Below, in pieces: positions 1,894-11,868 of a stretch of 64,000 nt of DNA. The position numbers and the translations under genes were made by a program. The notes beneath the pieces are model-generated. The model saw only the letters and a program-made list of their open reading frames with translations, did no database searches and was not told the DNA's origin. This DNA comes from Aliikangiella marina (GTDB taxonomy: Bacteria; Pseudomonadota; Gammaproteobacteria; Enterobacterales; Kangiellaceae): contig NZ_VIKR01000003.1 of assembly GCF_007004765.1 (NCBI RefSeq), positions 372,001 through 436,000 on the forward strand, written 5' to 3'. Position 1 is the first letter of the stretch; every line of letters starts with the position of its first letter.

Positions 1894-2055
1894 AGAGATA
1901 GGCTTTGTATCTGTTGAGTTTTGATAGATCTAGTTAATTACACAACTGTCATTCGAACCATTCTAAAATTATAGAAAAAGCAGTTATCAAATAGTGCAAT
2001 CGATTAAAATAGTGAACAAGTGAATTGACTCCAATATACAGACAATGGTAATAAC

Positions 2056-3361: not shown

Positions 3362-3400
3362 ATATTTTGCGTAAGATTCGCTGAAAAGATGAATGTGCGT

Positions 3401-3470
3401 CCTACTTCATCACTCACCTGCTACTGAGCAAATAATTTTAGAAAAAGATAAGCGGACGCTGATTTATAAG
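3401..3470 (+). repeat. Island inter-gene repeat, copy 1
   Basis: The copy reads TTCATCAC, then GCTACTGAGC, an AT-rich stretch, then AAGCGGACGCTGAT. It lies between the stop at 3361 and the ATG at 3492. It matches the shared layout (CATCAC box, GnCACT-like box, A-rich spacer, AAGCWGnCAYTCA box) with several differences. Confidence 0.5.
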
Positions 3471-3491
3471 ATTTGATATGCACACAAGCTA

Positions 3492-3815
3492 ATGAGTAAA
3501 AAACAAGAAATATATAAGGAAATTTTAGAGCTTTGTTTGCCAGAGTTGAGAAATAGTCTATCGGGTAGCTTCGTTTTCGGAAGAAGAAGAAAGGATGCAT
3601 TTGAACTGTCGCAATTAGTTCATAACCTATATGTATCAATATTAGAACCGGATTTTGTGGAACATGATCTTTGGTTTTTAAACGTTCAAGCTAAGGAATT
3701 TTTCGAATCTTCTCGAAGTTCGGTACTTTATGTACCAATAAATGAGCTCATTAAAGAGTTATTTAAACAAGTACCCGATAACGCTAGAATTAAGTTAGAT
3801 TGGGACGGTCCGTGA
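3492..3815 (+). CDS. Small soluble island protein, unknown function
   Basis: A 107-residue hydrophilic protein without signal peptide. It opens MSKKQEIYKEILELCLPELR and has a middle with helical character (DAFELSQLVHNLYVSILEP) and an acidic, Trp-containing end (KLDWDGP). I recognise no domain. The compact all-alpha appearance and genomic setting resemble small immunity-type or cassette-borne proteins, which is inference only. It is separated on each side by a copy of the island repeat, so it forms one unit of the array. Confidence 0.55.
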   Translation: MSKKQEIYKEILELCLPELRNSLSGSFVFGRRRKDAFELSQLVHNLYVSILEPDFVEHDLWFLNVQAKEFFESSRSSVLYVPINELIKELFKQVPDNARIKLDWDGP

Positions 3816-3880
3816 CCAGAAAATGCAAGTTGTTAGTAAGGCAGTCTTCATCAGAGTCTGAGTGAAAATATGATGGCGAC

Positions 3881-3950
3881 AGGCTCTGTTCATCACATAG
3901 AAGACACTTGGAACTCATTTTAATAAACATAAAAGCAGCCGTTCATTCAA
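3881..3950 (+). repeat. Island inter-gene repeat, copy 2
   Basis: One of the better copies: AGGCTCTGTTCATCAC, then AAGACACTTGG, an AT-rich spacer, then ATAAAAGCAGCCGTTCATTC. A diverged partial copy of its left part (CAGTCTTCATCA) lies just upstream, near 3842. The word GAGTTAAGTGAATCAAGG follows before the next ATG. Confidence 0.6.
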
Positions 3951-4015
3951 ATTAAGGATTGTACAAGAGCTGAAATTAATTCAGAGTTAAGTGAATCAAG
4001 GTTATTTCTAGTCTT

Positions 4016-4423
4016 ATGGAAGACATTAAGTACCCAAGCATCGAAGCTGTAGTGAAAATTTTAGAGAAAGTGGGAGTTGGTCCTGCATCTCGTGATCTGA
4101 ATTGCCAAGACTACGAATACACGACTTGTAGAATGGAAGAGTTGGAGCAGTATTTCCAGAACTATAGTAAGTCTGATACGACGGTTCAGGAAAAACGTGT
4201 GCTTGGATGTTATTTTATGGAAGGCTTGAATGACTTCGTATCTGCGCATAATATTAAGCATCCACTTCAAGATCAAATATTAGAAATTCTGCATAAAGAC
4301 TTAGATATTCACCAAGCAGAATTAGATTACCGGGTAGAGACGGATGATCCGGTAGAAGAACATTGGTGGCCTATTCGTAAGTATGTTTTAAAGTGGCGAA
4401 TGAATGCAAAAAATGTCAGATAA
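4016..4423 (+). CDS. Small soluble island protein, immunity-like size and setting
   Basis: A 135-residue acidic protein starting MEDIKYPSIEAVVKILEK. It has a mostly helical central segment (VLGCYFMEGLNDFVSAHN) and a C-terminal aromatic patch (EEHWWPIRKYVLKWR). There is no signal peptide or membrane segment. Proteins of this size and shape are common as orphan immunity-type genes, but I cannot name the family from sequence alone. It overlaps the next gene by about 20 bases, so the pair (this protein plus a small zinc-ribbon membrane protein) probably moves and is translated as one unit. Confidence 0.55.
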   Translation: MEDIKYPSIEAVVKILEKVGVGPASRDLNCQDYEYTTCRMEELEQYFQNYSKSDTTVQEKRVLGCYFMEGLNDFVSAHNIKHPLQDQILEILHKDLDIHQAELDYRVETDDPVEEHWWPIRKYVLKWRMNAKNVR

Positions 4424-4715
4424 AGAGTTTTGGAATGAAGTAGATAATTATAAGAAACTAATGGCTCTTACATTTGCACTTTGGATTCCATTTGGAATTA
4501 CTACTAGTCTAATTTGGGTAAGAGTGTTTGAATTCGAATTTAACTTTATTGTTGGAATGGTAATCTTGCTACTATGGGGATCTATTCAGCTAAAAATAAA
4601 TCATGATTTTAGAAAGCTAAAGCTCAAATGTCCGAAATGTGATAAGCAAGCATTTAACGATATACCTGTTTTATTTTCAGAGAACTCTTGTGCGAATTGT
4701 GGATATAGAAGATAA
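4404..4715 (+). CDS. Two-pass membrane protein with C-terminal zinc ribbon
   Basis: This 103-residue protein (or 100 residues from the second ATG at 4413) has two hydrophobic segments, around LMALTFALWIPFGITTSLIW and FIVGMVILLLWGSIQL. It ends in a zinc-ribbon-like knuckle pair, CPKC and CANC, spaced by about 17 residues. The layout suggests an inner-membrane protein with a cytoplasmic metal-binding tail. It overlaps the 3' end of the preceding gene and is followed by a repeat copy. Function unknown. Confidence 0.55.
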   Translation: MQKMSDKEFWNEVDNYKKLMALTFALWIPFGITTSLIWVRVFEFEFNFIVGMVILLLWGSIQLKINHDFRKLKLKCPKCDKQAFNDIPVLFSENSCANCGYRR

Positions 4716-4728
4716 AATTAGATGTTTT

Positions 4729-4800
4729 GGCTCTAACCATCACTTTGCGGCCTCTTGATTTTTAGCCATGGAAGAGAATGTCATCAAAAGCTGACACTCA
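4729..4800 (+). repeat. Island inter-gene repeat, copy 3
   Basis: GGCTCTAACCATCAC, then GCGGCCTCTTG, a spacer, then CATCAAAAGCTGACACTCA. It is followed by GAGTTAAGTAAT immediately before the ATG of the pseudogene at 4828. Confidence 0.6.
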
Positions 4801-4827
4801 ATATGATATTTACTAGAGTTAAGTAAT

Positions 4828-5061
4828 ATGCCTGCATATATGTGTAAATGCGGAACAGGAGTATCTGTAGGTGAAGTTCCTTGTGATAAACAATGGAACT
4901 TTATTTCTAATGTTCAGTTTGACAAGTATGAAGAGTCAATCGACTCTGAAGAGCTATATTAGGAAATGCAGGAATTTTTTAAATGTCCTTCATGCGGACG
5001 CCTTGCGATGTTCTAGGATGGATGGGATAGTGATCCCGTATTTTACTTGGAAGATGGTTAA
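4828..5061 (+). pseudogene. Broken small zinc-binding protein gene with two in-frame TAG codons
   Basis: Read through, this frame encodes 77 codons: MPAYMCKCGTGVSVGEVPC (codons 1-19), then DSEELY, stop, EMQEFFKCPSCG, then LAMF, stop, DGWDSDP, ending LEDG. The conserved-looking CKCG near the N-terminus and CPSCG in the middle are typical of small zinc-binding proteins. Both halves read as one protein once the stops are ignored. The stops are TAG at 4960-4962 and TAG at 5014-5016. The second sits where an aromatic or other residue would be expected before DGW; one base change from TGG (Trp) would explain it. The gene is placed 12 bases after the island word GAGTTAAGT, like intact neighbours. 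It is probably a decayed unit of the array. Confidence 0.65.
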
Positions 5062-5078
5062 AGCGATTAACATGTTTA

Positions 5079-5143
5079 GGCTCAAACCATCACAAAGCCG
5101 CCTTTTGTCGGTCTAAGAAATATTAAAAGAATTTGACATTTAA
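5079..5143 (+). repeat. Island inter-gene repeat, copy 4
   Basis: GGCTCAAACCATCAC, then GCCGCCTTTTGTCGG, an AT-rich spacer, then a degenerate right box (AAAAGAATTTGACATTTAAA). The left half is well kept and the right half has diverged. Confidence 0.5.
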
Positions 5144-5156
5144 ATGTACTGAAGAT

Positions 5157-5579
5157 ATGAAAGAAAATAAACTCTATAAAAAGTATGCTAAGAAACTAGG
5201 TGAGTTTGTACTCATACTTGTTATTGTATTCATAGTGCGAAATATATTTTTTCCTAGCCCGCAACTAGATGAGTGGCGTTCATTACCTCCAATACTACTT
5301 CAAGCTAAAAGCCAAACCGATGTGGCAGCTTTTATTGAAGAATTTAAGGTTAATGAAGTTGCTCTTGAAAAAGAGCTTAACGTTATAGGTATATCTATAG
5401 AAGAGTTTAAGAGTTCAGTGGAGATTGGTTTTATGCTGGATCATCCTAAAGATAAAAAATATGGAGTAACTTTCGTTTTTCGATCGTCAATTGATCATGA
5501 GTTACTTTCCCCCGCGTATACAAATATTGTTAATGACTTTTGGAAAAGATACAAGCTAGAACATAATAGTGAAGAGTAA
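5157..5579 (+). CDS. Single-pass membrane-anchored small protein
   Basis: The frame extends upstream to a TTG at 5133, inside the repeat, but the ATG at 5157 gives a sensible N-terminus: MKENKLYKKYAKKLG followed by the hydrophobic segment FVLILVIVFIVRNIFF. That is a signal-anchor with positive residues on the cytoplasmic side, so the bulk of the 140-residue protein is predicted to be periplasmic. The remainder is charged and ends in an acidic tail. No family recognised. It is one unit of the repeat-separated array. Confidence 0.55.
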   Translation: MKENKLYKKYAKKLGEFVLILVIVFIVRNIFFPSPQLDEWRSLPPILLQAKSQTDVAAFIEEFKVNEVALEKELNVIGISIEEFKSSVEIGFMLDHPKDKKYGVTFVFRSSIDHELLSPAYTNIVNDFWKRYKLEHNSEE

Positions 5580-5588
5580 TTAGTCGAT

Positions 5589-5652
5589 GGCGCAATTCAT
5601 CACTTTGTTGCCACTGGGAATATCAATTTAAATAAATAAAAGCTGCCACTCA
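5589..5652 (+). repeat. Island inter-gene repeat, copy 5
   Basis: One of the best copies: GGCGCAATTCATCAC, then TTGCCACTGG, an AT-rich spacer, then AATAAAAGCTGCCACTCA. The word TGCCACT occurs twice in direct orientation inside the copy. AGTTAAGG follows, just before the next ATG. Confidence 0.65.
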
Positions 5653-5688
5653 CAAGTACACAATAATACTGAAAGTTAAGGAATAGAT

Positions 5689-6030
5689 ATGAAAGCAGTT
5701 TTGGTAATTCTAATATTATTAATCCCTACAGTATCTTCCGCTTCAGATAAACCTACTCGAGTAGACATGGCGGGGATTCTTAAAATGTGGGGCAAAGAGA
5801 AGCCTGACGCAGAGATTCCTGGAGTGAGCCTCTTTATTACTGGCAAAGCCGCTGAAAAGCTCTATAAAGAATTGAAGGTGGAGCCTTTACGCAACGAGTG
5901 CTTTGATGATGGCACTTTAACGAAATACCTTGGCAGGTTTGAATGTAGCTATAGCGAGAAGTATCAATATTCCTGTTCGATTGGAATAGGTTTATCGGAT
6001 CAGAAGCTTTATTATGCTGAGTCATGTTAA
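5689..6030 (+). CDS. Small secreted Cys-containing protein
   Basis: 113 residues with a clear signal peptide: MKAVLVILILLIPTVSSAS, cleavage expected after SSA or SAS. The mature part has four cysteines (NECFDDG, FECSY, YSCSIG and a final AESC), suggesting two disulphides in the periplasm. The start ATG is preceded by AAGGAATAG, an acceptable ribosome binding site. I recognise no family. The small disulphide-bonded form would suit a periplasmic inhibitor or immunity protein, but that is inference. It sits between two repeat copies. Confidence 0.6.
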   Translation: MKAVLVILILLIPTVSSASDKPTRVDMAGILKMWGKEKPDAEIPGVSLFITGKAAEKLYKELKVEPLRNECFDDGTLTKYLGRFECSYSEKYQYSCSIGIGLSDQKLYYAESC

Positions 6031-6058
6031 ATAGCAAGTCTAGTGGTGAGTTTAATTA

Positions 6059-6129
6059 GCGCTTTCATCACCAAACGGTCACTCGCATCTTTATTTGATA
6101 AGAAATGAAACTTGAAAGCAGTCATTGAA
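6059..6129 (+). repeat. Island inter-gene repeat, copy 6
   Basis: GCGCTTTCATCAC, then CGGTCACTCGC, a spacer, then TTGAAAGCAGTCATTGAAT. It keeps all boxes of the shared layout. Confidence 0.6.
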
Positions 6130-6181
6130 TGCAATATGTCAAGAGACTAGTGAAACAACAACTTAAGAAAGTGTATTCTAT

Positions 6182-6694
6182 ATGCTAATTATTCAAGAAA
6201 TTGTGTCACGATGGACAAAGAAGTCTAGAGGAGCTCCTGGTGCGGCTATTAGAAACAGCGTACCTGAGTTTCTTGTAGTATCGGTACCAAATTCTAAAAT
6301 GGAAAGTGATAGCTGGATTTATCAACGGGAAATATTCGACGAATTCAAAAACTTCAAAGAACCATTCAAGCAGATTAATGTACTTCGACCTTTTAAACTT
6401 AACAAGTTTGGTGTTACAGATCTCTCAGCGTTAGAAGATAAAGTCGCAGTTAAAGTTAACTATGGTTCTTGGGGTGGTGCACCCATTAGAGACTATCAGG
6501 AAAATGAAGCATTTATGCTATCTACCAAGGAAATTGGCCAAGTGAGGTATAATTGGCGTGTCTCTCATGATGAAGGTGGTTGGGCATATGAGAAAACTGT
6601 TTTGAATATCGCTCTAGTTTCCGAGTTCGATTCAAGTTTGTTCGTTAACAGTAAGCCGAATTACATTTATGAAGATATGCCTAATTTGTGGTAG
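6182..6694 (+). CDS. Soluble island protein, unknown function
   Basis: A 170-residue soluble protein with no signal peptide. It has a Ser/Gly/Trp-rich central part (VNYGSWGGAPIRDY) and a beta-rich second half (WRVSHDEGGWAYEKTVLNIA). It ends in IYEDMPNLW. No family recognised. Base composition and spacing match the neighbouring array units. The start ATG at 6182 has no good Shine-Dalgarno sequence, and a later internal start cannot be excluded. Confidence 0.5.
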   Translation: MLIIQEIVSRWTKKSRGAPGAAIRNSVPEFLVVSVPNSKMESDSWIYQREIFDEFKNFKEPFKQINVLRPFKLNKFGVTDLSALEDKVAVKVNYGSWGGAPIRDYQENEAFMLSTKEIGQVRYNWRVSHDEGGWAYEKTVLNIALVSEFDSSLFVNSKPNYIYEDMPNLW

Positions 6695-6714
6695 ATGGTT
6701 TTTAATTAGGTAAA

Positions 6715-6780
6715 GATCTCAAAATATCACTTTACAGTCATTGGCAACAAGTATTAGCTAATATTTAAAGCAGACATTCA
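6715..6780 (+). repeat. Island inter-gene repeat, copy 7
   Basis: GATCTCAAAATATCAC, then ACAGTCATTGG, a spacer, then TTTAAAGCAGACATTCA. The first box has changed from CATCAC to TATCAC. Confidence 0.5.
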
Positions 6781-6810
6781 GTATAGCCATTTTGATCAAA
6801 TGAAAAATAT

Positions 6811-7071
6811 ATGAACATAGAACCTTGGTCTGAAATTGATAGTAGATTAGTAAATCAACTTAGAAAATGTGCCGATGAAAAGCGGCTCAACTACTTAGAT
6901 AAAGTTTCCAATTCTATTACTTATTCGTATATCGAATTTTTAAAGTGTGCAAGCGAACAAAAAATGGATTACGGTCAAGTATTCGGCGATTTCCACTTTC
7001 TTTCTGCCTACCAGTTAGAGTTAAATGGGGAAAGAAGAAAGTGTTCAATGAGCGGCAGCTTCGAAGCCTGA
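6811..7071 (+). CDS. Small soluble island protein, unknown function
   Basis: 86 residues starting MNIEPWSEIDSRLVNQLRKC and rich in charged and aromatic residues, predicted helical, with no signal or membrane segment. The C-terminus (RRKCSMSGSFEA) runs into what looks like diverged repeat sequence, so the present stop may have been created by a deletion or junction and the protein could be a shortened version. Function unknown. Confidence 0.45.
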   Translation: MNIEPWSEIDSRLVNQLRKCADEKRLNYLDKVSNSITYSYIEFLKCASEQKMDYGQVFGDFHFLSAYQLELNGERRKCSMSGSFEA

Positions 7072-7077
7072 ACTCGC

Positions 7078-7094
7078 AAAAAGCTGCGCTTTTT
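7078..7094. terminator. Small stem-loop after the 86-residue gene
   Basis: AAAAAGC-TGC-GCTTTTT makes a seven-base-pair, three-base-loop hairpin seven bases after the stop codon. It could act as a weak bidirectional terminator. The AAAAAGCTGC part is also the right-hand box of the island repeat, so this may be a rearranged repeat copy rather than a purpose-built terminator. Confidence 0.35.
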
Positions 7095-7133
7095 ACTCGC
7101 CCATTAACACGGATTTTTGCTTAGAGAAAGAAT

Positions 7134-7556
7134 ATGCGAATTATAGCCATACTTGTTGTTTTGTTGTCTCTAGGGAAAGCGTTCTCAATGACAGATACTT
7201 TAGGCCATTCGTTTGGTTTCAACTTTGTTTTCTTTTCACTTCTATTTTTTGTTTTTGTGCCAATGATAGCAACACGATTGCGGATTAAAATGTTTCAACA
7301 ATACTGCGATAGTTGGCTGAAAAATAATGGTTACAACTACACACAGATTACACCTGAACCGCACTTGTTATCGAAAGGTAAATTAAGATGGTTAGTTTCG
7401 GATGCACAGCTAGTATTTAGTATCAAAAACTGTGAAAAAGAAGAGTTTTGGTTTGCATGTGGTAGTTGGCTATTGGGCCCAATAACTAAACAAGTAAAGG
7501 TTTACAAGGTAAATGAAAAAGATGTTCTAATCATTGATAAATTTAAGGCGTCTTAG
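7134..7556 (+). CDS. Two-pass membrane protein, unknown function
   Basis: 140 residues with an N-terminal hydrophobic stretch (RIIAILVVLLSLGKAF) and a second, strongly hydrophobic segment (FVFFSLLFFVFVPMIA) ending near residue 50. A soluble basic region of about 90 residues follows, with three strand-like segments. It is predicted to be an inner-membrane protein with a cytoplasmic C-terminal domain. The ATG is preceded by AGAGAAAG, a plausible ribosome binding site. The 266 bases after it (7557-7822) contain only a very short frame beginning MSNPLNAHFREAN and a repeat copy. Confidence 0.5.
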   Translation: MRIIAILVVLLSLGKAFSMTDTLGHSFGFNFVFFSLLFFVFVPMIATRLRIKMFQQYCDSWLKNNGYNYTQITPEPHLLSKGKLRWLVSDAQLVFSIKNCEKEEFWFACGSWLLGPITKQVKVYKVNEKDVLIIDKFKAS

Positions 7557-7737
7557 TGGTTGTGATGCGCTTTACAAACTAAAAATCGCATAACAAAACT
7601 CCCATGAGCAATCCATTGAATGCCCACTTTAGGGAAGCAAATACAGCTATAGCTCTATAACCTTCGACTGTCTCCTTTATTGCAATGATTTATTCAACTA
7701 ACTAGATGCTTTATCTGTAATAAAATTAGGGGTAACT

Positions 7738-7800
7738 GACTCTAGCCATCACCTTTGAGACACTCGTTGTTCAATTGGATATAATTAAAGCTGCCACTGA
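7738..7800 (+). repeat. Island inter-gene repeat, copy 8
   Basis: GACTCTAGCCATCAC, then GAGACACTCG, a spacer, then AATTAAAGCTGCCACTGA. It closely resembles the copy interrupted by the insertion sequence at 9685-11385. AGTTGAATC precedes the next ATG. Confidence 0.6.
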
Positions 7801-7822
7801 ATTCTATTGAATTAGTTGAATC

Positions 7823-8182
7823 ATGAATAAAATTAAAGAAAGAGAAGTGTTCATCGAAGATTGTGATTGCGGGGTAAATCACCTTAATAAATATATAGAA
7901 GGCATGCTCATAAAACCTGATTCAGACGTTCAGTTTTCAACTGCATTAATTGAACATAATGACGAAAGAGACCTTTGGTTTTGTTTTTTCTCAGTTGGTT
8001 GCAAGGGGATAACGGATAAACATTGCTTTTTCACTATTCATTCATACTTTAATGAATTGGGTCGATGTTACAGTATTAAAGATGGCGAAGAATCACCTTT
8101 TAAGAATGTATATAGTAAGGATTTATACAGGATAAGCAGAGATGAAGTCTTAAGAGATAGCGTTCTTAAAGGTGTCCTATGA
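7823..8182 (+). CDS. Small soluble Cys-rich island protein
   Basis: 119 residues starting MNKIKEREVFIEDCDCG, with five cysteines (CDC, and singles near FCF, GCK and HCF) and no signal peptide. The beta-strand-like stretch LWFCFFSVGCKG is flanked by charged regions. No family recognised. It lies 32 bases upstream of the next gene with no repeat between them, so these two genes probably form one two-gene unit. Confidence 0.5.
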   Translation: MNKIKEREVFIEDCDCGVNHLNKYIEGMLIKPDSDVQFSTALIEHNDERDLWFCFFSVGCKGITDKHCFFTIHSYFNELGRCYSIKDGEESPFKNVYSKDLYRISRDEVLRDSVLKGVL

Positions 8183-8214
8183 ATATAGTACCGAATAATT
8201 AAGTTAGTTTTATT

Positions 8215-8595
8215 ATGAATACTAAAGAGTTTAAATTGGTTGTTTATGGAATATCTACCGAGCTAGGATCTAGTCCAGGGCAAGTGATAGAACCCAATGT
8301 AACTCCCAATTTTTGGGCTTGTAAATTAGAACATCAGCTGTTTAATGTATTTATTATATGTTCAGAAAATAATGAGTGGGCACTTTTAGATTCCTATGAT
8401 CCAACCAAGTGTGAATTGAACTTTATTGATAACGAAATGATCTCAAAAGCACTTAGCTCAAGGTTTGGAATAGTTTTAAATTTGAAAAAAAAGCTTGAGA
8501 GTGATTTTATAGCGCTGCCTTCAATGAGTGAGAATGACATTAAATACTGGAGGCCGAAAAATCTCGGAGAAGGGATTTTCAATTGGTGGGATTAG
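8215..8595 (+). CDS. Soluble island protein ending in an aromatic motif, possible immunity protein
   Basis: 126 residues, no signal peptide. The final segment MSENDIKYWRPKNLGEGIFN followed by WWD is a distinctive Trp-rich ending. I associate such IKYWRPK-x-x-G-x-x-x-FN-WWD endings with small proteins found near polymorphic-toxin loci, but this is from memory and not proven here. It is the second gene of a pair with the 119-residue protein and is followed by a repeat copy. Confidence 0.5.
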   Translation: MNTKEFKLVVYGISTELGSSPGQVIEPNVTPNFWACKLEHQLFNVFIICSENNEWALLDSYDPTKCELNFIDNEMISKALSSRFGIVLNLKKKLESDFIALPSMSENDIKYWRPKNLGEGIFNWWD

Positions 8596-8635
8596 CTATA
8601 GAGTTTATCTTTCTGGGTGAAAAGAGCCAACGACC

Positions 8636-8700
8636 GGCAACGTGCATCACTTAGTTGTCTTTTGGTATTTGGAACTTATGAAATAAAAGCAGTCAATCAC
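8636..8700 (+). repeat. Island inter-gene repeat, copy 9
   Basis: CGGCAACGTGCATCAC, then AGTTGTCTTTTGG, a spacer, then AATAAAAGCAGTCAATCAC. An in-frame extension of the downstream gene runs back through this copy, which is a reason to place that gene's start later. Confidence 0.6.
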
Positions 8701-8745
8701 GCGAACTTGTGCTCTAACATCACTAGTTCTTACCATAACATCTTA

Positions 8746-9261
8746 ATGAAAATACTTACTATGAAGTTGTTAAGTTTAAAAATTGTTTTTATATCTGTGT
8801 TTTTTTCGACTTCGTGCCTTGCTAGCCAGGATACTGTCTATTTTTGGAATAATGTTTCGTTTGAAACAGATCAAGGAAAGGTATACCTTCGCGTAGATCA
8901 GAAAACAGGTGCCCTAAGTGAAATGCGAGTGTTTATTGATGATAAGGAAGTTAGTGTAGATAACAAGTACTTCTTAGGCTTGTCTTCAATACAGTTGAAT
9001 ACAGTTAAGTATTCTGGAGGGTGTTCTTTTCGCCCTGTTAAGTGCTATAAATACCTAAGTTTTGAATATCGAGTAGATGTTGACTTTGAAGTTTATCCTG
9101 ACTGGTACGAAGACCCTCAAGTAACGTTTATCTTTAGTGAAGGCCAGTTTGTGGAGAGGAGACAGCGAATTAAAAAGTCACCTAAACTGTGGGAGCTGAT
9201 ATCAACCGACCTTAAAGGTGTAGTTCATGTTGGTAAAGAAGAAATCGTCAGATCATATTAA
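8746..9261 (+). CDS. Secreted protein, unknown function
   Basis: The longest frame begins inside the upstream repeat at 8617, but the ATG at 8746 (or the next at 8761) gives a proper signal peptide: MKILTMKLLSLKIVFISVFF followed by STSCLAS. I use 8746, giving 171 residues. The mature protein is beta-rich with a single close Cys pair (GGCSFRPVKCY). A possible lipobox TSC in the signal region is not well formed, so export by Sec with ordinary cleavage is more likely. No family recognised. Confidence 0.55.
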   Translation: MKILTMKLLSLKIVFISVFFSTSCLASQDTVYFWNNVSFETDQGKVYLRVDQKTGALSEMRVFIDDKEVSVDNKYFLGLSSIQLNTVKYSGGCSFRPVKCYKYLSFEYRVDVDFEVYPDWYEDPQVTFIFSEGQFVERRQRIKKSPKLWELISTDLKGVVHVGKEEIVRSY

Positions 9262-9307
9262 TAAGCGAAAGATTAAAGAAGTATGCTCTATTTAGAGTGT
9301 CGATATA

Positions 9308-9526
9308 GTGACTGTCAGTAATAGTCTTTTAGATATGGAACATTGGTGCTCGTGTGCTGAGAAGGCATATGAGGAAGGTAGAAGCCTAATAGTCGAATTA
9401 CTTGATGGCTCTACGAAGGAAATTGAACTAAGCGACGCGGAAGGCGAGTTTGATTGTTTAGGAGAAATGCTCAAAGAAGTATTGTTTAAGGCAAAAGAAG
9501 AAGGATTTTTTTGGGTTTACCTCTAG
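9308..9526 (+). CDS. Small acidic soluble protein
   Basis: 72 residues from a GTG start: MTVSNSLLDMEHWCSCAEKA, then a strand (RSLIVELLDGSTKEIELSD) and an acidic helix, ending FFWVYL. The product is acidic, has no signal peptide and is of unknown family. The start is not certain because no strong ribosome binding site is seen. It is the last intact small gene before the insertion sequence. Confidence 0.45.
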   Translation: MTVSNSLLDMEHWCSCAEKAYEEGRSLIVELLDGSTKEIELSDAEGEFDCLGEMLKEVLFKAKEEGFFWVYL

Positions 9527-9667
9527 CTAAACCTTGTTTGATGTCATTAGAAGAATATAGCGGATCGTTTGGTTGGCCATGTTATGAGAAAATTGAAATT
9601 GAAGGTTTTGTAAACTAGCAGTCGAGAGGCTCAAGGCATCAGAGGTTGTGTAAAAAGTATGAACGAT

Positions 9668-9684
9668 AGGCAACTCTCATCACA
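9668..9684 (+). repeat. Left fragment of an island repeat, cut by the insertion sequence
   Basis: AGGCAACTCTCATCACA corresponds to the first boxes of the island repeat. It ends in ATCACA exactly where the insertion sequence begins. The rest of the copy resumes at 11386 on the other side. Confidence 0.5.
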
Positions 9685-11385
9685 GACTGTGTGAAAACGA
9701 TCGATTATTTGTTTGATTTGTGATCTAATGATCTTACGGTCATTCAGCCATCGGTTAACTCAATGAAACGTTTCATTCAAGGTGAAAACCGAAGTCAAAG
9801 TACCTTATTTCCCGAAGCATTAGATGATTACATCAGCGAAGAAAATCAGATAAGAGTCATCGATGCTTATGTCGATTCAATCGACTTATTATCACTAGGC
9901 TTCAAAGGTGTAGAACCGAAAGACACGGGTCGTCCATCCTACCACCCATCAGTCATGCTTAAGTTATATATCTATGGCTACTTAAATCGTCTTCAATCAA
10001 GTCGGCGTTTAGAAAATGAAACGCATCGTAATGTTGAATTAATGTGGTTACTCAGCCGATTAACACCAGACTTTAAAACGATAGCGGACTTTAGAAAAAA
10101 TAATGGTCGAGGCATCAAGAATGTATGCCGTCAGTTTATCGAATTATGTCGTCAATTAAACTTATTTAGTGAAGCGGTGATAGCCGTTGACGGTAGTCGC
10201 TTTAAAGCAGTCAATAAAAAGAATCGAAACTTCACCCAGGCGAAAGTAAAGTCACGGATTGAACGAGCGGAAGCGAGTATCAGCGCATATATGTCAGCGC
10301 TTGATAAAGCCGATAGAGACGCACCGAAAGATACAGCTACTCAAGAAAAACTTAAAGATAGAATTCAATCATTGAAGGATAAAATTGTTGAGCTTAATGA
10401 AATAGACAAGCTGCGAAAAAAGTCACCCGATGGTCAACTATCTTTGACCGATCCAGATTCCAGGGCGATGTCGACAAAGGCCAATATATCAGGGCTTGTG
10501 GGATACAATGTTCAATCAGCCGTAGAGTCTAAGCACTATCTGATAGTAGCTCACGAGACGACCAACAGTGGCTCAGATCGAAACCAATTAGCGAATATGG
10601 CCAAGCAAGCTCGCTCAGCAATGGGCAAGAAATCGCTGACGGTATTAGCTGACAAAGGGTATTACAGCAGCTTGGATATATTAGCCGTTAAAGAGTTAGG
10701 AATGGAGCCATTGGTACCTAAAATTTTTACGTCAGGCAAAAAAAAGCAAGGAATGTTTACCAGGGATGAATTTAAGTATCAGCCCAAAAGAAATGAATAT
10801 CGATGTCCCGCAGGAGAGCGACTGCCTCATCGCCACTCGTCATTTGAGCGAGGAATGAACATTCATACTTACTACAGTAGCAACTGTCGAACTTGTAAGC
10901 TCAAACAAAAATGTACAACGGGAAAAGAGCGCAGAGTCCGGCGATGGGAACATGAGAAAGTCTTAGAAGAAATGGACGATGCGTTAAAGAAATTTCCTGA
11001 TCCTATGTTGGTACGAAAATCGACAGTTGAGCATCCGTTCGGAATAATAAAGTCATGGATGGGGGCAACGCATTTCCAAATGAAGACATTAAAACATGTG
11101 AGCACTGAAATGAGTCTGCATGTCTTGGCGTACAATCTAAAACGAGTGATGAAAATAATGGGAAGTAAAACGCTGATAGAAGCGATAAAAGCCTGAGGAA
11201 GGCTTGGCTTTAATATATCGATGAAATAAGGCCTTATACGAGCGTATATGACGGCTCTTAAATTGGCGCAAATATTAAAGAAAATATTTCATAATAAAAT
11301 TAAAATTCGTTAAACCGGCTAAGAGAAAGCCTAAATAGCAATTGAGACCATAATATGTGATGATAGGGTGTTTTCACACAGGCTG
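9685..11385 (+). mobile_element. IS1182-type insertion sequence
   Basis: The element has a 12-bp perfect terminal inverted repeat, CTGTGTGAAAAC at 9687-9698 and its complement at 11370-11381, and one intact transposase gene between. The six bases ATCACA occur directly outside both ends (9679-9684 and 11386-11391) and may be the target duplication. The bases between the repeat ends and ATCACA differ in number (2 and 4), so the exact borders are uncertain by a few bases. The 3' 190 bases of the element are non-coding. Confidence 0.75.
9763..11196 (+). CDS. IS1182-family transposase
   Basis: This 477-residue protein has full length for the family and no frameshift. The N-terminus (RFIQGENRSQSTLFPEALDD) and the segment RPSYHPSVMLKLYIYGYLN match the DUF772 / InsH N-terminal domain. 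The catalytic DDE core shows Asp in AVDGSRFKAVN, Asp in VLADKGYYSS and Glu in STVEHPFGIIKSW. A Cys-rich stretch (YRCPAGE, SNCRTCKLKQKC) in the third quarter is typical of IS1182 and related elements. It catalyses cut-and-paste movement of its own element. It is intact, so the insertion may be recent or still active. Confidence 0.9.
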   Translation: MKRFIQGENRSQSTLFPEALDDYISEENQIRVIDAYVDSIDLLSLGFKGVEPKDTGRPSYHPSVMLKLYIYGYLNRLQSSRRLENETHRNVELMWLLSRLTPDFKTIADFRKNNGRGIKNVCRQFIELCRQLNLFSEAVIAVDGSRFKAVNKKNRNFTQAKVKSRIERAEASISAYMSALDKADRDAPKDTATQEKLKDRIQSLKDKIVELNEIDKLRKKSPDGQLSLTDPDSRAMSTKANISGLVGYNVQSAVESKHYLIVAHETTNSGSDRNQLANMAKQARSAMGKKSLTVLADKGYYSSLDILAVKELGMEPLVPKIFTSGKKKQGMFTRDEFKYQPKRNEYRCPAGERLPHRHSSFERGMNIHTYYSSNCRTCKLKQKCTTGKERRVRRWEHEKVLEEMDDALKKFPDPMLVRKSTVEHPFGIIKSWMGATHFQMKTLKHVSTEMSLHVLAYNLKRVMKIMGSKTLIEAIKA

Positions 11386-11445
11386 ATCACAAAAGAGACG
11401 CTCGTCTTGATAAAATAGTCTACTAAAAGTGGTCGTTAAAATGGA
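11386..11445 (+). repeat. Right part of the interrupted island repeat
   Basis: ATCACAAAAGAGACGCTCG, a spacer, then ACTAAAAGTGGTCGTTAAA. The left part aligns well with the copy at 7738 (CATCACCTTTGAGACACTCG). Together with 9668-9684 it makes one repeat copy split by the insertion sequence. Confidence 0.5.
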
Positions 11446-11461
11446 TTGAAAGGTTAGATAA

Positions 11462-11647
11462 TTGGGAATCATTAAAGAAAAGAATGAAATTGCTAAACGA
11501 GGCCTTTCTTTAGCTTCGGAGCTGGACAAATTATCGAAAAAGTATCATGTTAAATCTGACATACATGAAATGTTAGCATGGGAAGCTGATATTCTTAGAG
11601 CGAAGTCTCGTGATTTAATAGAAGGTTGTGGAGTTATGGAGAATTAA
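11462..11647 (+). CDS. Possible last array gene, 61-residue helical protein
   Basis: The frame is preceded by a stop codon at 11459, so the TTG at 11462 is the only upstream start. AAAGG lies about nine bases before it. The product (MGIIKEKNEIAKRGLSLASE to SRDLIEGCGVMEN) is predicted to be one long amphipathic helical bundle without signal peptide. It follows the split repeat like other units of the array, which is the main reason to accept it. No family recognised. Confidence 0.4.
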   Translation: MGIIKEKNEIAKRGLSLASELDKLSKKYHVKSDIHEMLAWEADILRAKSRDLIEGCGVMEN

Positions 11648-11868
11648 AAACACTCGGCTTTTTCGATTAATCGCGATTCGAACGCCGATAAAGAGCTATC
11701 GGATATTTCAGTAAAGGTAAAAAAATTCATAATCACTATCAGAGTCATGAAAACTCATAGGTCTTTTGGATTGATAGGATTGCCTGTTTTCATCACCGTC
11801 CAGCCAGTCGAAAAAGTAAATAAAAGAGCCCAAATTACTAAAAGGTGACACTCGGTTTCTTAACTTAG

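Follow-up and report, generated by a model that had tools for sequence, protein, structure and literature searches.

How a row of short, unrelated genes on one strand came to be separated by copies of a single intergenic repeat is the question raised by a locus of Aliikangiella marina (Kangiellaceae). The locus lies in a 64,000-nucleotide stretch of contig NZ_VIKR01000003.1 (G000:C3:372001-436000; hereafter the window), from a host genome of 5.34 Mb in 8 contigs (G000). A sequence-only reading of the window had described it as a gene-capture or gene-shuffling locus at 3401-11647, either a sedentary integron or an orphan immunity-gene array. Our comparisons suggest that the repeats are probably, though by no means certainly, the recombination sites of arrays of mobile gene cassettes, that these sites are not attC sites, and that recombination would occur site-specifically at a CATCAC core.

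The repeat is a dyad with a near-invariant core

Aligned copies of the repeat share the consensus TGANNGNC-N6-CATCAC-N6-GNCNNTCA, in which inverted arms flank a near-invariant 6-bp core. A third arm copy, AAAAGCNGNCRYTCA (box2), repeats the right arm (box1) in direct orientation 3' of the dyad. CATCAC is exact in 49 of the 56 G000 copies and in 14 of the 14 copies of a second set, and conservation is higher in the core than in the arms. In a logo of the 56 copies aligned on CATCAC, the conserved positions are G at -13, A at -12, G at -9 and C at -7, the core itself (0 to 5) and, on the right side, G at +12, C at +14, T at +17 and C at +18. These positions are symmetric about the core, with GNC/GNC and GA/TC in register. 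Column-wise comparison of the left arm with the reverse-complemented right arm gave a value of 1.77 in register, with none of sixteen other shifts exceeding 0.79. The distance from the start of the core to the start of box2 is bimodal in G000 (39-41 or 47-50 bp) and is 49-51 bp in G012, another Kangiellaceae genome.

The sequence-only reading had distinguished a CATCAC box, a GnCACT-type box, an AT-rich spacer of about 25-35 bases and a third box. These motifs are real, but the first two form one contiguous dyad site whose left arm, TGANNGNC, had been overlooked; the third box, AAAAGCWGNCAYTCA, is a direct copy of the same arm, and the spacing from box to box is bimodal. Sites of tyrosine recombinases are characterised by inverted arms on either side of an overlap of 6-8 bp that is common to both partners, and the repeat has this layout.

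Homology between cassettes ends at the core in six of 14 cases

Arrays were compared with each other on both strands, with the list of units compiled by reading BLAST output, and this gave seven pairs of gene units that share homology across different arrays. One unit (L042:10273-10901 and L045:7869-8497; 0.63 kb, 95% identical) has both of its ends at CATCAC, and the DNA outside is unrelated. Homology halts at CATCAC on the right in L044/L046 (94% identical), L008/L041 (90%) and L041/L045 (72%), and it begins at the core on the left in the pair formed by L045 and window position 11386 (88%). In total, six of the 14 unit ends are at CATCAC (chance probability ~7e-8 given the density of sites). 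Of the remaining ends, three coincide with the border of a RAYT-like element, one (pair 7, from the opposite-strand comparison) falls on the first base of box2, one lies in a leader and three lie elsewhere. We take the junctions at CATCAC to reflect strand exchange inside the core, and they are the strongest evidence for cassette recombination; the earlier description of a gene-capture or gene-shuffling locus is supported by homology that breaks exactly at the repeat core. An empty-site comparison through a hydrolase gene that flanks a one-cassette array was uninformative, as the relatives were only ~50-55% identical and had different neighbours.

The repeats form dispersed arrays in two genomes

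The first search model (R1) was built from 15 copies, using sequence only and no structure, and gave 11 matches inside 3406-11856 of the window, all on the + strand. A retrained version (R2) identified 11 sites in the window (E 1e-12 to 2.6e-6), including the copy split by an insertion sequence (IS), and added a degenerate copy at 1937. The nine or more intergenic copies and the one IS-split copy described previously all exist. The array is indeed present over the proposed span of 3401-11647, but it extends in degenerate form to the left of 3401, and ~55-60 kb upstream there is a second array. Genome-wide, model R1 gave 71 matches at E<=1, many of them outside the training set (best untrained E=1e-10). 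The ~60 copies of the repeat form about ten arrays across G000, with a single orientation within each array. The number of matches and their E-values in G000 are far above chance, and this abundance of further genomic copies, which had been proposed as a check, speaks against a refutation of the gene-shuffling reading.

Six congeneric genomes had no match at E<=0.001. Among 40 genomes of the family Kangiellaceae, arrays were found besides G000 only in G012, which has ~13 copies of the same site associated with different genes; a single clear copy is present in G036 and a single marginal match in G006, and R2 gives one weak match in G001. No genome other than G000 and G012 has more than one match among 395 genomes of the order. 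When 84,980 species genomes were scanned with a sequence pattern, nine matches resulted, one of which, on a Kangiellaceae contig, is supported by the model, while the others are single and chance-like. The sensitivity of this pattern is low (13 of 56 sites of G000 and one of 14 of the second set are recovered), and absence elsewhere is unproven because the pattern misses most known sites. Viral contigs had no match with the first pattern and only single matches with relaxed patterns, the best of which falls within a phage structural gene, and blastn of the array against plasmids and phages returned no match.

The sites do not behave as attC sites

A complete integron integrase (IntI; TIGR02249 over cut-off) is encoded in 20 of the 40 family genomes, and none was detected over cut-off in G000 or G012. 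RNAalifold predicted 0 consensus pairs across 63 sites. When the arms were forced to pair, 57.9% of cells paired in register, compared to 30-50% when the arms were slid against each other. Pairing was likewise 57.9% when partners were shuffled among sequences, and the covariation score was equal to that of the shuffles. Because pairing equals that of shuffled partners, the symmetry of the arms lies in the consensus, as in a protein-bound duplex and not a hairpin; the sites are not attC hairpins because there is neither a conserved fold nor arm covariation. The logos contain no motif resembling the GTTRRRY crossover core, and the invariant core is CATCAC. The idea of a sedentary integron therefore finds no complete IntI, conserved fold, arm covariation or GTTRRRY core to support it. 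Integron-type traits are present in the form of co-oriented small cassettes that exchange at one shared position within the site (CATCAC). Membership in the integrons is not supported, but an integron-like mode of working is.

An IntI-derived protein is encoded in G000, G012 and G036 (L090:4378-5481, - strand, at G000:C2 ~148.4-149.5 kb; L107:1132-2055; and L106:1264-2193, - strand), and other family members with large genomes have similar partial IntI-like matches. The protein lacks the HxxR motif and the catalytic tyrosine in all three genomes, and the box-I arginine is also altered in two of the three. It was rejected as the acting recombinase on this account. It is possibly a domesticated, catalytically dead integron integrase.

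Search for the recombinase

Seven PF00589 matches were identified in G000, namely XerC, XerD, two phage-type integrases, a TnpS-like protein and fragments. The xerC gene sits in a duplicated contig segment: the array at the start of contig C5 recurs, together with xerC, 59,097 bp further on, with 99% identity over the compared 10-kb stretch. Either a large duplication or an artefact of the assembly would explain this recurrence. The TnpS-like recombinase gene is divergent from a gene for a TnpT/KfrA-like coiled-coil protein and adjoins mer-like genes (L093:4076-6177); the two resemble a Tn4651-type resolution pair. The TnpS-like gene is present in nine of the 40 family genomes, with a distribution that does not track the arrays, and we rejected its product as the array recombinase for this lack of correlation and because there is no site beside the gene. 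The recombinase was not found; that it would be of the tyrosine type we infer from the layout of the site.

Sites and genes of the window

All features of the window array are on the + strand. A degenerate site (1937..1984; R2 E=6e-4) lies between genes to the left of the span reported earlier. Site 1 (3394..3464; core at 3408, box2 offset 40; E=4e-8; this and the E-values below are from R2) precedes a 107-amino acid (aa) cassette gene with no Pfam match (3492..3815). Site 2 (3877..3947; core 3891, offset 40; E=1e-12) is followed by genes of 135 aa (4016..4423) and 103 aa (4404..4715), the latter coding for a zinc-ribbon-like membrane protein whose homologue from the second array is 78% identical. 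Site 3 (4724..4802; core 4738, offset 48; E=8e-12) is followed by site 4 (5077..5142; core 5087, box2 weak; E=3e-7), which was outside the training set and precedes a 148-aa open reading frame (ORF) (5133..5579). Next come site 5 (5584..5654; core 5598, offset 40; E=1e-12) with a 113-aa gene (5689..6030), and site 6 (6052..6130; core 6066, offset 48; E=5e-10) with a 170-aa gene (6182..6694).

Three two-gene cassettes follow: site 7 (6711..6782; core TATCAC at 6725, offset 41; E=7e-8) with genes of 86 and 140 aa (6811..7556), site 8 (7733..7802; core 7747, offset 39; E=3e-10) with genes of 119 and 126 aa (7823..8595), and site 9 (8631..8701; core 8645, offset 40; E=2e-9) with genes of 171 and 72 aa (8746..9526). 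Site 10 is split by an IS1182-like IS (9684..11384; transposase 9763-11196): its left part, to CATCA, is at 9673..9683 and its right part (ATCAC, box1 and box2) at 11383..11440 (E=3e-6), the junctions of the IS showing an ATCA target duplication. The 61-aa gene that follows (11462..11647) has a 92% identical copy in another array, with DNA homology beginning at CATCAC. The array-terminal site 11 (11777..11856; core 11791, offset 49; E=6e-8) is followed by a convergent LysR gene.

Cargo, leaders and guest elements

Cassette units are 350-1912 bp long (median 604 bp) and contain one or two genes. The longest ORF is on the strand of the site in 46 of 49 units, and one exception is a Y1-transposase element. 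A Pfam scan of 75 cassette proteins left most without any match; single matches were obtained to Imm33-like, DUF4262, DUF2750, DUF4304, DUF6678, macro domain and S1 families, and one cassette of G012 is a YefM/YoeB pair. PADLOC returned only weak matches. No Rhs, contact-dependent inhibition or type VI secretion system genes were seen beside the arrays. The earlier proposal of an orphan immunity-gene array gains from the few immunity-like matches, but most of the proteins are unmatched and no such toxin-system gene adjoins. Orphan-immunity content is plausible on these few domain matches, and the arrays may store orphan immunity genes alongside other accessory genes.

A leader 3' of box2 has two palindromes, CCTTCAATTGAAGG and CCTCAATTGAGG, and is conserved ahead of unrelated genes; it is present at L044:351 and 1830 and at most G012 sites (L074-L077). 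In G012, site and leader together are 89% conserved before unrelated genes. The palindromic leader may be an operator or a 5' untranslated region module. The AGTTAAG previously noted near start codons appears to be a remnant of this longer leader, which is clearest in G012. At several array-terminal sites a GTCATTCCGAGCG element comes after box1, and a hairpin-type repeat, GTCATTCCGAGCGTAGTCGAGGAATCTC, stands directly 3' of box1 in place of box2 at L046:9355, L008:3147, L047:8029 and L049:10446.

The IS1182-like IS has only two genomic copies, in the window and at L041 ~6347-8047. Both are inserted in CATCA|C of site cores, in different arrays with different flanks, and each has an ATCA duplication. 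A RAYT-like Y1 transposase element of ~1.3 kb is present in three arrays (L045:8849-10166, L046:5631-6947 and L043:10357-11392). It was rejected as the driver of the arrays because related and partial copies are spread throughout G000. A group II intron with a reverse transcriptase lies within a cassette of a G012 array (L075 ~824-2880).

Proposed mechanism and alternative explanations

A cassette would extend from one CATCAC to the next and comprise the core, the right arm, the spacer, the second arm copy, the leader and one or two small genes. The acting enzyme is, by analogy, probably a tyrosine-type recombinase, which would bind the arms and swap strands within CATCAC. A requirement for identity of the overlap between partners would keep the core near-invariant and make all cassettes point one way. 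Circular cassettes could be excised from, or inserted at, any CATCAC site, and the accessory arm may be a further contact for the recombinase or a helper. The recombinase may have been lost or may act from elsewhere, as for clusters of attC sites without an integrase (CALINs). Several observations weigh against cassette recombination at CATCAC. The seven PF00589 loci all lie away from the arrays, neither they nor the other recombinase loci examined have an evident site adjoining them, and the ORF lists of arrays and flanks contain no adjacent recombinase. Five of the 14 homology ends are neither at the core nor at a RAYT element, and the junction test covers few units taken by eye from BLAST output.

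The repeat could instead be a regulatory module, an operator or promoter shared by the small defence genes of one regulon, and ordinary recombination, whether illegitimate or homologous, would then have shuffled the arrays. Its place directly 5' of each gene, the further palindromes in some leaders, the conserved site and leader of G012 and the junctions in box2 or leader all suit such a module, yet several breakpoints fall precisely in the 6-bp core, the repeats are otherwise too diverged for homologous recombination, and the arms are less conserved than the core; we consider it unlikely. An origin as ends or relics of a gene-carrying transposable element, similar to miniature inverted-repeat transposable elements (MITEs) or related to Y1/RAYT, would account for the RAYT-like elements, MITE-like hairpins and IS in or beside arrays. 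This is disfavoured and, to our minds, very unlikely: unit ends have no inverted terminal repeats, one single core lies between neighbouring units, and the IS and RAYT elements have ends of their own, RAYT copies being genome-wide. Slightly less probable still is an orphaned integron array (CALIN) with divergent attC sites recombined by IntI as folded single strands. A CALIN would fit the co-oriented small genes without known function, the presence of an IS and a group II intron as guests, a toxin-antitoxin (TA) cassette and IntI in half of the family genomes, but it is mostly refuted by the missing consensus fold, arm pairing only as column composition predicts, a conserved element in the style of a double-strand dyad, inconsistent GTTRRRY, and the lack of a complete IntI in G000 and G012, in each of which the IntI-like gene is devoid of the catalytic HxxR and tyrosine.

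The arrays could also be a gammaproteobacterial counterpart of the rAID arrays of Bacteroidales, in which a tyrosine recombinase would help to gather orphan immunity genes. The published description of rAID arrays names a tyrosine recombinase, genes of 100-300 codons that all point one way and motifs conserved between the genes, and calls their mode of growth not clear (PMC12247911). Compared with that description, the layout matches apart from the enzyme, and Imm33-like, DUF4262, DUF4304 and DUF2750 cassettes point the same way. No recombinase adjoins the arrays, though, and most cassettes have no recognisable immunity fold, with cargo that also includes S1, macro-domain and TA proteins. We regard a rAID counterpart as rather doubtful, albeit less so than the regulatory module; it overlaps partly with cassette recombination and does not exclude it.

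Comparison with known systems

The locus is, on sequence grounds, a real, dispersed, site-specific cassette array and a new variant of such arrays, in which a putative enzyme would carry out live exchange. A literature search, which mostly did not reach subscription papers, found no description of the CATCAC site. It is quite possible, though somewhat less likely than not, that the arrays represent a second, non-integron capture system, in which an undescribed recombinase swaps cassettes with a 5' double-strand site and CATCAC overlap core among about ten arrays, without IntI or attC folding. Integrons are the textbook case of bacterial cassette stockpiling, and an independent solution with a different and fully defined site would, if true, show repeated evolution of cassette arrays. 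The arrays also offer dozens of tagged genes of unknown function for tests of cargo, and the motif of core and arms is sharp enough for direct cloning and assay.

By reported layout, the closest analogue is the rAID arrays. Co-oriented genes of ~100-300 codons and a shared intergenic motif are common to both, and orphan immunity content may be; in contrast to rAID, there is no recombinase gene beside the arrays, either in the ORF lists or among the PF00589 loci elsewhere, the phylum differs and many arrays are dispersed. The junctions here map to the core, whereas the growth mechanism of rAID is left unresolved in that report, so that the CATCAC arrays, if they work as proposed, would provide an entry point to the growth of rAID-like immunity arrays (PMC12247911).

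The likeness to integrons and CALINs lies in head-to-tail, co-oriented small cassettes of mostly unknown genes, a TA module, an IS and a group II intron as targeted guests and, as in CALINs, the absence of an integrase. Unlike in integrons, the core is CATCAC and not GTTRRRY, there is no hairpin and no complete IntI in G000 or G012, and the site is 5' of the gene, with a putative crossover at its left edge and a dyad plus a direct accessory arm. The site layout resembles that of attI and Tn4430 TnpI/IRS, sites of tyrosine recombinases in which inverted core arms around a short overlap are accompanied by direct-repeat accessory arms. Those sites occur once per element, whereas here there is one per gene and no related recombinase was identified. 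The p-dif modules of XerCD are likewise gene modules bounded by tyrosine-recombinase sites; the arms and core described here are unlike dif when the logo is inspected by eye, and the sites all share one orientation.

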